Positions 10,881 to 35,802 of a stretch of 43,323 bases of DNA are shown piece by piece. Below the pieces are notes generated by a model. That model saw nothing but the letters and a program-made list of their open reading frames with translations, searched no databases and was not told the origin of the DNA. A program made the translations under genes and the position numbers. Origin of the DNA: Arenimonas donghaensis DSM 18148 = HO3-R19 (GTDB lineage: Bacteria > Pseudomonadota > Gammaproteobacteria > Xanthomonadales > Xanthomonadaceae); the NCBI RefSeq assembly GCF_000743535.1, contig NZ_AVCJ01000014.1, forward strand, positions 1 through 43,323. The letters run 5' to 3'. Every line of letters starts with the position of its first letter. Positions within the stretch are counted from its first letter, which is position 1.

Positions 10881-10890
10881 GAGCGCCCCT

Positions 10891-10940
10891 GTGGGAGGGA
10901 CTTCAGTCCCGAAGCTTTTCGGGACTGAAGTCCCTCCCAC
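10891..10940. repeat. REP palindrome copy 1 (50 bp)
   Basis: The copy starts gtgggagggacttcagtccc and has perfect 23-bp arms around a 4-base centre. It lies between the convergent cca and VanZ-like genes and can form a hairpin in both transcripts. The VanZ-like reading frame runs into it and stops in the distal arm at 10903. Confidence 0.95.
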
Positions 10941-11316
10941 AAAGAATCTTTTCCACCCGCTCGAGCGCGAAGCGCAGCGGCGTGAAGGTCAGCGACAGTC
11001 CCACCGCGACACCCAGCGTGTTGGCGACGGCGTCGCGCACGTCACCCAGGCGCAAGGTGGTCAGGCTGGCCTGGGCGATTTCCATCGCGATGCCCAGGAA
11101 CACCAGCGCCAGCGCCGCCAGCAGGTGCGCCCGGCGCGTTCGGAACAGCCATACCGCCCAGGCCGTCAAAGTGAAATAGGCCAGGAAGTGGCCGATCTTG
11201 TCCGAGCCGGCGGGCCCGGGCAGGTCGGGCGGCGGCACCAGCGACAGCACGATGCACAGCACCCAGCCGGCCAGCCACAGGCCCAGCCAAAGCCGGGGAT
11301 GCACGAAAGCCCGCAT
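10903..11316 (-). CDS. VanZ-like membrane protein with a REP-encoded C-terminus
   Basis: The product has 137 residues with about four transmembrane segments. The family signature is visible in PAGSDKIGHFLAYFTLT and ALVFLGIAMEIAQ followed by RLGDVRDAVANTLG. VanZ-like proteins are small membrane proteins of mostly unknown role; the name comes from teicoplanin resistance, which is not implied here. The final 12 residues, CGRDFSPEKLRD, are read from REP copy 1, so the native stop was replaced when the repeat arrived. The start ATG lies just downstream of the methyltransferase stop (11319), so the two are co-transcribed. Confidence 0.85.
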   Translation of the reverse strand: MRAFVHPRLWLGLWLAGWVLCIVLSLVPPPDLPGPAGSDKIGHFLAYFTLTAWAVWLFRTRRAHLLAALALVFLGIAMEIAQASLTTLRLGDVRDAVANTLGVAVGLSLTFTPLRFALERVEKILCGRDFSPEKLRD

Positions 11317-13300: not shown

Positions 13301-13310
13301 TTGCGCTTTT

Positions 13311-13362
13311 GTGGGAGGGACTTCAGTCCCGAAGGGGCTTTCGGGACTGAAGTCCCTCCCAC
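13311..13362. repeat. REP palindrome copy 2 (52 bp)
   Basis: Perfect 23-bp arms flank the centre ggggct. It sits between the convergent pteridine reductase and DUF6159-like genes. Just after it, cacagggcaat occurs twice (from 13360 and from 13381), a short tandem duplication at the repeat edge. Neither neighbouring reading frame enters the palindrome. Confidence 0.95.
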
Positions 13363-13396
13363 AGGGCAATGCGGCTTACCCACAGGGCAATCCGGC

Positions 13397-14230
13397 CTAT
13401 TTCGGGCGGAAGGCGGCCTGCAGCTCGCCGCCGCTGAAACCCTGCGGCGCCTGGCCATCGACGGCATAGCGATAAACCGCCGCCGAATACACGCCCGACA
13501 GGGCCGCCTGGAACACCGCCACCAGCGCCACCGCGATGACGCCGATCACCGCGACGACGATCGCCAGCTCCGGACCGCCGAGCATCGCCGCGCCCACCAC
13601 CATCGCGACCGCCAGCACCACGACCAGGGTGGTGATGATGCCGAAGGCGAAGTTGATGCCGACGTTGCCGACCACGTTCTCGCCCCAGGTGCGCTTGAGC
13701 AGGGTGACGCTTTCCTTGACCGCGTCGATCGGACCGACGTCGCGGGTGACCAGGATCGGCACCACCAGGAAGGTGGCGAAGGTCCAGGCCATGCCGACCA
13801 GGTTGAGGATGATGCGGCCCAGGAAACCGGCGCGCTCGCCCAAGGCCTTGAGCACGATGCCGACGGTCGCGGCGATCGCCGCGTAACCGAGGATCACGCC
13901 GATCTTCGAGCGCGCGATGCGCAGGCCGTCGGCCACGGTCGGGTCGCCGCCCTCGAGCCGGATCATCGCCGCGCCCACCAGGGCCGTGTTGAAGAAGAAA
14001 ATCACGAAGTACTGCGAGACATAAAACAGGAAGCCGACCACGAAGCCCGCCGGTCCGATCTCGCCGCCTTCGAAGATGCGCAGGCCCAGCACCGGCACCA
14101 GGAAGGTCAGCGCCACCAGCAGGGTGGCGATGCCCGAGATCACCGGGAACAGCAGCAGTTCCTTGTCGGTACGCAGCACACCGGCGCTGGCCTTGACCAG
14201 GTGCCAGCTGCGGGAAATCTTGTCGAACAT
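13397..14230 (-). CDS. DUF6159-like integral membrane protein
   Basis: The product has 277 residues with about six hydrophobic segments. A short cytoplasmic N-terminus, MFDKISRSWHLVKASAGVLR, resembles that of proteins annotated as DUF6159. Motifs include FNTALVGAAMIRLEGGDPTVADGL and TWGENVVGNVGI. No catalytic residues are recognisable and no function is known. It is the last gene of the minus-strand tsaD-folB-folK run, 87 bp after folK, and may be co-transcribed. REP copy 2 follows its 3' end. Confidence 0.7.
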   Translation of the reverse strand: MFDKISRSWHLVKASAGVLRTDKELLLFPVISGIATLLVALTFLVPVLGLRIFEGGEIGPAGFVVGFLFYVSQYFVIFFFNTALVGAAMIRLEGGDPTVADGLRIARSKIGVILGYAAIAATVGIVLKALGERAGFLGRIILNLVGMAWTFATFLVVPILVTRDVGPIDAVKESVTLLKRTWGENVVGNVGINFAFGIITTLVVVLAVAMVVGAAMLGGPELAIVVAVIGVIAVALVAVFQAALSGVYSAAVYRYAVDGQAPQGFSGGELQAAFRPK

Positions 14231-14316
14231 GGTGCGCTCCTCCCGAATGACACCCCGATTATGCGTCCTTGCTGCAATGCCGCAAGGCCGGAAGTCACCC
14301 CTGCCCGGCGCGGGCT

Positions 14317-14817
14317 TCAGGGCGCGGCGGCGAGATCCAGCGCTTCGACGGGCGGCGGGCTGGAGGCTCCGGGGTGCGCCGCCCAGAGTTCGGCCAGCGT
14401 GCGTCCGTCGCCCGGAACCGTGTGCCGCGGGGCGATGTCGGCCAGGGGTTTGAGCACGAAGGCGTGCTGCAGCTCCGGGCGCGGCAGCTTCAGGTTGCCG
14501 GGCCCTTCCAGCACCAGGTCGTCGAAAAAGACGATGTCGATGTCCAGCGGCCGGTTGGAGAAGCGTGGCCCACTGCGGTCGCGGCCGAAGGCCTGTTCGA
14601 GCGCATGCAGCCAGTCGTTGAGTTCAACGGGGGAAAACGACGTGCGGATGATGGCCGCGGCATTGAGGAAATCCGGGCCGTCGAAACCCACCGCCGGCGT
14701 GCGGTACACCGGCGAGAACACCACGTCGCCGAAGGCCTCGCGCAGGGCGCGGGCGGCGCCGGCCAGGTTGGCGGCCGGGTCCAGGTTGCTGCCCAGGCTC
14801 AGCCAGGCGGTGCTCAC
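14317..14817 (-). CDS. folK: 2-amino-4-hydroxy-6-hydroxymethyldihydropteridine diphosphokinase
   Basis: The product has 166 residues. The N-terminus AWLSLGSNLDP and the substrate-loop motif FSNRPLDIDIVFFDD (about residues 85-100) are the HPPK signatures, with the Mg-binding DID present. The enzyme transfers pyrophosphate from ATP to 6-hydroxymethyl-dihydropterin in folate synthesis, directly after FolB. The start overlaps the folB stop by 4 bp, so translation is probably coupled. The C-terminal ~20 residues are Pro/Ala-rich and dispensable-looking. Confidence 0.94.
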   Translation of the reverse strand: MSTAWLSLGSNLDPAANLAGAARALREAFGDVVFSPVYRTPAVGFDGPDFLNAAAIIRTSFSPVELNDWLHALEQAFGRDRSGPRFSNRPLDIDIVFFDDLVLEGPGNLKLPRPELQHAFVLKPLADIAPRHTVPGDGRTLAELWAAHPGASSPPPVEALDLAAAP

Positions 14818-15170
14818 GTTTCGCGCTGGCGCTCGATGATGACGCCCACCGCGCGCGAACCGCGCACGGCGCCGGGCTTGGCCAGCTTCAGGCGCACGTG
14901 TTCGACGTCGAATTCTTCCAGGATGATGGCGGCGCAGCGCTCGGCCAGCGACTCGACCAGGCCGAAGTTGGATTCGGAAACGAACTGGATCAGGCGCTTG
15001 CTGACCGCCTTGTAGTCGAGCGTGTCGGCGATGTCGTCCGAGGCGGCCGGCTTGCGGTTGTCGAACGCCATCTCGATGTCCAGCACCACCGGCTGGCGGA
15101 TCTTGCGCTCCCAGTCATAGATGCCGATGACACATTCGATCTCGAGCGCTTCGATGAAAACCTTGTCCAC
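14814..15170 (-). CDS. folB: Dihydroneopterin aldolase
   Basis: The product has 118 residues. Family motifs are IEALEIECVIGIYDWERK at the N-terminus, the LDYKAVSKRLIQFV helix and the ESLAERCAAIILEEF segment bearing the active-site Glu. FolB splits 7,8-dihydroneopterin into 6-hydroxymethyl-dihydropterin and glycolaldehyde, the substrate of FolK encoded next. It lies 33 bp downstream of the tsaD stop, and REP copy 3 fills the junction. Confidence 0.94.
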   Translation of the reverse strand: MDKVFIEALEIECVIGIYDWERKIRQPVVLDIEMAFDNRKPAASDDIADTLDYKAVSKRLIQFVSESNFGLVESLAERCAAIILEEFDVEHVRLKLAKPGAVRGSRAVGVIIERQRET

Positions 15171-15191: not shown

Positions 15192-15245
15192 GTGGGAGGG
15201 ACTTCAGTCCCGATTTGACCGAGTCGGGACTGAAGTCCCTCCCAC
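15192..15245. repeat. REP palindrome copy 3 (54 bp), supplying the tsaD 3' end
   Basis: Perfect 22-bp arms flank a 10-base centre. The tsaD frame enters the right arm in phase GTG-GGA-GGG, reads 13 codons and stops at TGA (15204-15206) in the left arm. The longer centre shifts the phase of the second arm, which is why this copy terminates translation although it is entered in the open phase. Confidence 0.95.
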
Positions 15246-16292
15246 AGCGCTCAAGCTTGCCATGTCCCAGCGTGGTGTCACGGTGACGACGGCGGCTTCG
15301 TGCTGGCCGGCCTGCAGGCGCAGGGCACCGGCGAAGGCGATCATGGCGCCGTTGTCGGTGCAAAACGCCGGGCGCGGGAAACACACGCGGGCTGTGGGAG
15401 GGACTCCAGCGCCGGAACGTTTCGGGACTGAAGTCCCTCCCACCACAAGCGTCTGCAGGCGTTCGCGCAGGCGGGTGTTGGCACCGACGCCGCCGGCGAC
15501 CACCAGGGTGCGGGCGCCGGTGGCGTCGAGCGCGCGCTGGCACTTGATCGCCAGGGTCTCGACCACCGCGTCCTCGAAACCGCGGGCGATGTCGGCGCGG
15601 GTTTGCGGGGCCTGGTCCGAGCCCTGCCAGGCCAGCAACACTTGCGTCTTGAGCCCGGAGAAACTGAAATCGAGCCCGGGCCGGTCGGTCATCGGCCGGG
15701 AGAAAGTGAAGACGCCCGGGCGCCCGGATTCGGCCAGCCGGGCCAGTTCGGGACCGCCCGGGTAAGGCAGGCCCATCATCTTGGCGGTCTTGTCGAAGGC
15801 TTCGCCGGCGGCGTCGTCCAGGGTTTCGCCGAGCAGGCGGTAATCGCCCACCGCGGCCACCTCGACCAGCTGGGTGTGGCCCCCCGAGACCAGCAGGGCG
15901 ACGAAGGGCGGTGCCAGGCCCGGGTCTTCGAGCAGCGGCGCCAGCAGGTGGCCTTCCATGTGGTGCACGCCCACCGCCGGCAGGTCCAGGGCCCAGGCCA
16001 GGGCGCGGCCGGCGGCGGCGCCGACCATCAGGGCGCCGACCAGGCCCGGGCCGGCCGTGTAGGCGACGCCGTCGAGATCGGCCGGGGCCAGGCCCGCCTC
16101 GGCCAGGACCTCGCGCACCAGGGGCAGGAGCTTGCGGACGTGGTCGCGGCTGGCCAGCTCGGGCACCACGCCGCCATATTCGGCGTGCAGGGCGATCTGG
16201 CTGAACAGCGCGTGCGCCAACAGGCCGCGGTCGGTGTCGTACACCGCCACGCCGGTTTCGTCACAGCTGGTTTCGATGCCAAGGACGCGCAT
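15204..16292 (-). CDS. tsaD: tRNA N6-threonylcarbamoyltransferase TsaD with REP-encoded insert and tail
   Basis: The product has 362 residues, against 337 in E. coli. The start is the ATG at 16290-16292, giving [14 protein letters not shown], the family N-terminus. The metal-binding [23 protein letters not shown] and [15 protein letters not shown] are all intact. With TsaB and TsaE, TsaD adds the threonylcarbamoyl group to A37 of ANN-decoding tRNAs and is essential in most bacteria. Residues 284-300 ([17 protein letters not shown]) are encoded by REP copy 4 in frame, just before the conserved [14 protein letters not shown]. Residues 350-362 ([13 protein letters not shown]) and the stop are encoded by REP copy 3. 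Relative to E. coli the internal loop is about 13 residues longer. The ORF is otherwise intact, so the protein is presumably functional. It is divergent from rpsU. Confidence 0.95.
15394..15443. repeat. REP palindrome copy 4 (50 bp), inside tsaD
   Basis: The right arm (plus strand) is identical to the other copies. The left arm carries about six substitutions relative to copy 1, so only the outer 12 bp of the stem pair perfectly. Read on the minus strand in the tsaD frame it has no stop and encodes 17 residues. Confidence 0.93.
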
Positions 16293-17195: not shown

Positions 17196-17202
17196 GCCCC
17201 GT

Positions 17203-17228
17203 GTGGGAGGGACTTGAGTCCCTCCCAC
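17203..17228. repeat. REP palindrome copy 5, shortened to 26 bp
   Basis: Only the outer parts of the palindrome remain (gtgggagggact, tg, agtccctcccac). The inner ~24 bp are missing. GGGACT occurs in both arms of the full element, so recombination between those copies would give nearly this product. It lies between yqeY and dnaG, 33 bp upstream of the dnaG start. Confidence 0.9.
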
Positions 17229-28015: not shown

Positions 28016-28043
28016 CTGGGTATCCAACGTGGGATCGCCTTGA

Positions 28044-28093
28044 GTGGGAGGGACTTCAGTCCCGAACGGCATCGGGACTGAAGTCCCTCCCAC
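28044..28093. repeat. REP palindrome copy 6 (50 bp)
   Basis: Perfect 22-bp arms flank the centre acggca. It lies between the convergent twin-TM gene and coxC, outside both frames, 25 bp past the coxC stop. Confidence 0.95.
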
Positions 28094-28117
28094 AGAAGGC
28101 GTTTCCCACCTGCCTCG

Positions 28118-35722: not shown

Positions 35723-35739
35723 GCGGGTGGACTGCACCT

Positions 35740-35789
35740 GTGGGAGGGACTTCAGTCCCGAAGCTTCTCGGGACTGAAGTCCCTCCCAC
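35740..35789. repeat. REP palindrome copy 7 (50 bp)
   Basis: This is the same palindrome as copy 1, differing near the centre (gaagcttctc), with an AAGCTT core. It lies 17 bp after the putA stop, between convergent genes, followed by a separate terminator hairpin. Confidence 0.95.
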
Positions 35790-35802
35790 AAGATGACGAG
35801 GA

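Follow-up and report, generated by a model that had tools for sequence, protein, structure and literature searches.

The window, by which we mean the whole 43,323-nucleotide stretch of the Arenimonas donghaensis contig analyzed here, carries tsaD on its minus strand and several copies of a REP family (Table 1). One REP pair lies wholly within the tsaD ORF: the minus-strand frame is open, without a stop, through 15394-15443, as an earlier note made from the sequence alone had claimed, and translation agrees with that note in assigning the insert-encoded peptide to residues 284-300 of the 362 in TsaD. The earlier note described a single REP of 50 bp. Although an element does occupy that interval, it consists of two inverted REPs (a head-to-head dimer, or REPIN), and alignment with 21 REP-free tsaD genes of the genus defines an inserted block of 55 nt, with an uncertainty of ~1 base at its right edge.

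Table 1. Positions of tsaD, its insert and related REP elements in the window
Feature	Position	Strand	Evidence
tsaD, 362 aa with insert and REP-derived C-terminus	15204..16292	-	TIGR03723 418.8 bits, PF00814 312.3 bits
Inserted block, head-to-head REP pair, GTGG-tagged, replacing ~16 native nt	15393..15447	-	Sequence and alignment
CT dinucleotide immediately upstream of the tsaD insert (minus-strand sense)	15448..15449	-	Sequence
Second REP pair, giving the final tsaD residues and stop codon	15191..15246	-	Sequence, relatives
Stop codon of tsaD, within the second REP pair	15204-15206	-	
REP pair, same family as the tsaD element	10890..10941		
REP pair, same family as the tsaD element	13310..13363		
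Single REP, immediately ahead of the 17214 ORF (presumably primase DnaG)	17202..17226	+	
REP pair, same family as the tsaD element	28043..28094		
REP pair, same family as the tsaD element	35739..35790		

In near relatives with a REP-free tsaD, the native stretch between CT and GGC CGC is 16 nt long (for example, GGCGGAAAAGCGCCGC) and supplies the codons for AEKRR. In its place, this genome (G000) has 55 nt (+39), and two other members of the genus have 64 nt (G017, +48) and 76 nt (G007, +60), in frame in all three. The first 12 nt of the G007 insert resemble a diverged duplicate of the REP's own start (VAGP-VGGP), and the inserted peptides differ among carriers (VGGPSGPKLFAKGFGPEGPPT, compared to a different 17-residue peptide in G000). 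All three inserts are predicted to fold as RNA into the long hairpins of inverted REP pairs, with energies of -40.1 (G000, z -7.5), -55.8 and -61.9 kcal/mol (z -7.5 to -11.3). The C-terminal ~12 residues of TsaD and its stop codon derive from the second REP pair, again read in the VG frame, whereas the proteins of REP-free close relatives end in ...MASLPPV or similar. Thus, the earlier statement that TsaD is otherwise intact is not quite right.

The inserted element belongs to a large family. We found at least 83 matches to it in the genome, on both strands and 81 of them elsewhere (40 of 126 candidates scored), and its exact core, GGAGGGACTTCAGTCCCG, occurs 176 times, compared to 0 for the reversed control, well outside what chance would give. 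The stretches examined contain 52 REP pairs, of which 31 are 52 nt long including tags. With a tag (GTGG in G000, GTAG in G007 and G017) next to a hairpin, these elements fall within the GTAG superfamily of REPs.

A candidate mover is also present. The genome has three matches to PF01797 (C8, C1 and C12), and the one covered by our scan for REP-associated tyrosine transposases (RAYTs), at C8, scored 120 bits against NF047646 (cut-off 80) and is flanked on both sides by ACT-type REPs, such that a RAYT sits beside the same REPs; the match at C1:111662 lies, by coordinates, between GCG-type REPs. At the two positions ahead of GTGG, 95 of the 138 half-sites in the stretches examined have C at the first and 123 have T at the second. 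In the tsaD insert, one T separates CT from GTGG, which puts CT one base farther away than is usual here. Passages of PMC8266576 describe cleavage by TnpA-REP at a CT beside the REP in other systems. We infer that the tsaD REPIN was most likely spread by a RAYT of this genome. Around the RAYT gene at C8 (L161:10210-11024), seven REP halves occur within ~800 nt.

In bacteria, tsaD is generally essential. TsaD with its insert scored 418.8 bits against the TIGR03723 equivalog, well above the cut-off of 296.1, and its nearest named TsaD among the matches listed is that of Lysobacter selenitireducens (79%). Both HHMEGH (H110-H115) and CTDN (C311-N314) show no variation across 32 aligned sequences; the insert ends ~10 residues ahead of CTDN, whose Asp we take to be a metal ligand. 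The aligned part comprises 349 residues, compared to 336 in the E. coli and Salmonella proteins, which is the gain of 13 residues over E. coli that had been estimated earlier. In the AlphaFold model built from 32 sequences (mean pLDDT 85.8), pLDDT falls below 50 at residues 288-297, in the insert, and at 352-362, in the REP-derived tail, while the helix before the insert (273-285) and the strand after it (302-304) are preserved; TM scores, normalized by query length, are 0.88-0.90 to 3zet, 4ydu and 6z81. The model, a check that the earlier note had proposed, therefore predicts a retained fold with a disordered insert. The core dN/dS was 0.16 for the G000 gene relative to three relatives and 0.105 between the other two carriers (G007 and G017), both inside the range of 0.05-0.22 seen over the 11 tsaD pairs tried; thus, the gene is under purifying selection. 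The peptide of the insert is probably translated and retained in TsaD and would be nearly neutral for the protein.

These results bear on two other explanations. The insert might be an assembly error or a mark of a pseudogene, given that REPs are repeats and that the assembly is in 51 contigs; however, the 55-nt element is probably shorter than a read and is located inside a contig, and inserts at the same place and in frame are found in two other assemblies. Moreover, a core dN/dS far below 1 does not fit a pseudogene, nor does the copy number: the search of the genome, rated 100% complete, gave, besides the tsaD of the window, a single 29-bit stretch at C22, taken as the paralogue tsaB, but no second tsaD. 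The idea that a second tsaD covers for a broken copy was accordingly rejected, and we give an artifact or a dead gene hardly any credence. Alternatively, the new loop might have been co-opted for TsaD function, by contacting tRNA, TsaB or TsaE or in regulation, as might be suggested by its persistence in three species and by the basic pair KR that is kept in G000 where relatives have KRR or similar. Against this, the insert is predicted to be disordered, its sequence differs among the carriers, it is missing from 21 of the 24 full-length tsaD genes of the genus, and nearly the same peptide appears in unrelated enzymes. We regard co-option as very improbable.

Among relatives, the insert is found at the same tsaD site in 3 of the 24 full-length genes of the genus (G000, G007 and G017); outside these 24 are G012, in which the gene is split and contains unknown bases, and G018 and G021, which had no match and are rated 85% and 81% complete. 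We measured the distance from AGGVGAN to DNGAM in 102 motif-bearing loci, of which 26 are from the genus (two of them overlap within a single genome) and 76 belong to a wider TsaD set of 80; in 98 loci it amounts to 39 residues. The three carriers, at 52, 55 and 59 residues, are the only longer loci among the 102, and one locus is shorter (35 residues); four loci without a motif match likewise have 39. We also searched 395 genomes of the family with the G017 insert peptide and obtained matches in 388. The three carriers came out on top (E 8e-34 to 2e-21), followed by a next best match at 3e-11, and the nine loci ranking after them each have a loop of 39 residues; loop length was checked at these 12 loci, and an insert of an unrelated REP could escape a query of this kind. 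Thus, a naturally long loop in relatives, which the earlier note had named as grounds for refutation, was rejected, as none of the REP-free TsaD proteins examined has a loop of the insert's length.

A separate observation concerns G009, whose tsaD loop has the native length and carries at the insertion place a stretch of 16 nt, TGTGGGCGGGGCCCGC, that encodes VGGAR and starts with TGTGGGCGGG, resembling a REP tag. We considered whether this could be a scar left by a REP and rejected it: the best 18-mer has 8 mismatches to a REP half, and the likeness is limited to the first ten bases. Because the whole stretch fails to match a REP half, the scar is a guess.

The tsaD insert does not stand alone, as at least ten genes of G000 supported by family models have an in-frame REP: tsaD and genes for an IcmF-type mutase, a molybdopterin oxidoreductase, metG, dsbD, mannose-1-phosphate guanylyltransferase/isomerase (GMP-PMI), dihydrolipoyl dehydrogenase, murL, an ABC-F protein and indolepyruvate oxidoreductase. 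We called an element in frame if, in the stretches around the listed REPs, one stop-free coding frame continued on both sides of it. Of 137 elements screened, a sample of the REPs in the genome with 2 left unevaluated at stretch ends, 14 were flagged, and 9 of these were kept. The other five (L143, L145, L156, L159 and L258) were rejected as coding because of a low coding score on at least one side, and the four of them that were scanned (all except L143) had no family match; they read VG (L156 and L258), WEGLQSR (L159) or, as single arms, SGLKSLPQ (L143 and L145). The ABC-F element (L186) was missed by this screen and flagged by a looser one; we retained it, as its ORF plainly encodes an ABC-F protein and reads VGGTEAPPT in frame.

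The palindrome is read with a frame bias. The tagged arm reads VG(G/A)x(S/P) in nine of the ten genes, and in the tenth, encoding the ABC-F protein, whose element has its two arms fused, it reads VGGTE, in the same phase but outside the pattern; a CGRDFSP or WEGLQSR reading is absent from all ten kept genes. Much the same REP-derived peptide is thus present in unrelated enzymes of G000. For comparison, 100 other two-arm elements are crossed by 325 open frames, and VG(G/A)x(S/P) is the reading in 155 of them (0.477), so that nine of nine would have a probability of 0.477^9, or ~0.0013; this value is a guide only, since the bias was spotted prior to its test, the result depends on the choice to drop five elements, and the null comes from two-arm elements, yet three of the nine cases have one recognizable arm.

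Comparison of the orthologous loops in 12 genomes of the genus revealed that REPs recur at the same places across species. In the MurL loop, a REP pair lies with its tags inside (tail-to-tail) in G000, G001, G009 and G014 and with its tags outside (head-to-head) in G007, G017 and G023, and none was seen in G003, G005, G011, G015 and G026. The MetG linker has a REP in G000, G003, G007, G017 and, in decayed form, G009. In the GMP-PMI loop, G000, G003, G007 and G017 have a REP pair; G001 has one arm only, an exact GCG-type copy in frame, as does G009 with one mismatch to a REP arm. Pairs at shared loops read VGGxS or VGAPS, the decayed G009 MetG copy reads AGATS in the same phase, and the single GMP-PMI arms read PEGAP (G001) and PEGPP, which is the phase of the GTEVPPT arm. 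At the GMP-PMI loop of G007 (L224), the pair is a hybrid of a GGG-CC arm and an ACT arm, in frame. By coordinates, the matches to metG of G003 (L219/L222) fall in two frames, and the change of frame comes shortly before the REP; this frameshift is perhaps a sequencing error in a single-contig assembly.

The stem types of these REPs differ among the genomes. Exact half-REPs of the ACTTCAGT type number 176 in G000, 153 in G007, 98 in G017, 104 in G023 and 12 in G003, with 0 in G001, G005, G009 and G014. The GGG-CC type is found 117 times in G007, 27 in G009, 17 in G014, 11 in G001, 10 in G023, 9 in G017, 7 in G003, 5 in G005 and 0 in G000, and the GCG type 114 times in G000, 68 in G009, 59 in G001, 54 in G005, 47 in G014, 3 in G007, 1 in G017 and 0 in G003 and G023. 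The four species that share the unusual tail-to-tail layout in MurL have different stems there: ACT in G000, GGG-CC in G014 and GCG in G001 and G009. Each of these types recurs at other places of the genome concerned and, G014 apart, is the commonest counted type in it. Likewise, the tsaD stems of the sisters G017 (ACT) and G007 (GGG-CC) differ in their bases with pairing kept, and GGG-CC is the second commonest type of G007. This pattern suggests that REP stems have been rewritten in place at the MurL and tsaD sites; repeated insertion at one spot is an alternative.

The palindrome itself might be what is kept, for a role of the DNA or RNA hairpin in mRNA stability, pausing or topology, with the peptide a by-product. 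The very strong folds of the tsaD inserts, the retained pairing between the differing G017 and G007 stems, and the match between the MurL stem subtype in four species and one found in each one's own genome would all fit such a role. On the other hand, one arm has been lost (GMP-PMI in G001 and G009) or has decayed at some sites while the ORF is still open, and the frame bias points to the level of the peptide. We therefore consider a hairpin role unlikely. A bolder reading, to which we give somewhat less than even weight, is that some loops are standing docking sites for REPs, hit independently across lineages and tolerating one benign frame, in which the palindrome is rewritten in place toward the REP types of the host, by gene conversion or RAYT replacement, while the gene stays open. 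If true, a population of mobile elements would edit coding sequence continuously.

The history of the tsaD insert was assessed with trees. In a four-gene tree (5811 columns; 12 of 27 genus genomes), G000 groups with G001, G009, G005 and G014, while G007 and G017 are in the other clade, and monophyly of the three carriers is rejected (AU P = 7e-68). Two independent insertions are therefore the likeliest and simplest reading of the sequences. The competing scenario is a single insertion, either ancestral or spread by homologous recombination between species, that was then lost in most lineages. The replaced stretch and the reading frame are identical in G000, G007 and G017, which is easier to reconcile with one event, ancestral or transferred, than with two free insertions, and the tsaD core alone speaks only weakly against union of the carriers (AU P = 0.033). 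However, no FastTree run on tsaD or its flanks joined the three carriers, with G000 always apart, although the flank trees are mutually discordant, and losses would have had to recreate the native-like codons (AEKRR, AAKRG and others) that are present in the insert-free relatives, except G009. Furthermore, the MurL layouts are opposite in the two clades, which indicates that repeat visits to one loop do happen. The argument from the shared stretch lapses if targeting to CT and the limits of the loop fix the ends of the insert, and we ascribe the shared stretch to entry after the same CT together with those limits. Thus, a single origin seems doubtful, although transfer of the insert between species is possible.

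We think it highly probable that a GTGG-tagged REPIN, probably spread by a RAYT, entered the TsaD loop and was tolerated there. On this account, the element would have landed just after CT in the loop that joins helix RLRERLQ to strand RVCFPRP. It would have displaced about five native codons (AEKRR in near relatives), either at the same time or in connected steps, and the frame would thereby have been preserved. It would then be translated as a flexible loop of Gly, Pro, Ser and Thr that TsaD tolerates. The same process, filtered by what loops permit, would have placed REPs in at least nine further genes of this genome and, repeatedly, in the same loops of related species: selection would purge any insertion that brings a stop, a frameshift or misfolding, leaving permissive loops and the one benign frame of the palindrome.

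The earlier note knew of no such case for REPs of Xanthomonadaceae, a view overtaken by Di Nocera et al. (2013; PMC3733652), who, in the sections consulted, report in-frame REPs within genes for known proteins. These include recB of Xanthomonas campestris and X. oryzae, where differing REPs lie at approximately the same site, X. oryzae genes for tRNA synthetases and, in S. maltophilia, those for tRNA pseudouridine synthases A and B; more than half of the intragenic REPs there are dimers or groups, with 20-30 aa encoded. The elements described here resemble those GTAG/CGTC REPs in being in-frame singletons or dimers in known genes, in having REP ends that provide stop codons and, as in recB, in the presence of different REPs at a shared site in related species. 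In contrast, the single-frame bias and the turnover of stems at shared sites are found only here, relative to the parts of that paper examined, and its main text does not name tsaD, gcp or ygjD, although its supplementary list might include tsaD. Thus, in-frame REPs are already known, in Xanthomonas and Stenotrophomonas genes included, and the tsaD case is one with a better resolved history than in those parts of the paper. Our literature search for TsaD with a palindromic REP insertion yielded, among the matches listed, one E. coli CRISPRi screen holding all the terms, and a search on intragenic REPs in Xanthomonas by combined terms had no match.

Two other systems are comparable, as far as the passages considered here go. 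Rickettsia palindromic elements (RPE) are translated in frame within genes, including dnaE (PMC3733652; PMC10969869), and share with the tsaD element a palindromic repeat in frame inside a gene, but they belong to other sequence families and to another bacterial class, and some are longer (~150 bp). The intragenic CGTC repeats of R. conorii correspond to RPE-4 and RPE-6 (PMC3733652), whereas the tsaD inserts are GTGG/GTAG-tagged. With REPIN/RAYT systems (PMC3116915; PMC8266576; PMC3686654), the tsaD case shares inverted REP pairs with a GTAG or GTGG tag, a RAYT beside the same REPs and CT near the tag, but the passages on those systems leave REPs within genes untreated.

The tsaD insert is a clean and readily checked example of how mobile DNA can add protein sequence to a reputedly essential gene, for which REP-free sister species serve as controls. 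Because REPs recur at the same loops, it can also be tested whether intragenic palindromes are under peptide constraint or act as DNA elements, and whether REP populations homogenize in place.

Two minor features of the window deserve mention. The plus-strand ORF at 13301-14839 starts within a REP and overlaps real-looking minus-strand ORFs; it is probably spurious, a trap for gene callers. A half-REP of the GCG subtype, the second subtype of this genome, lies at 2740-2757.
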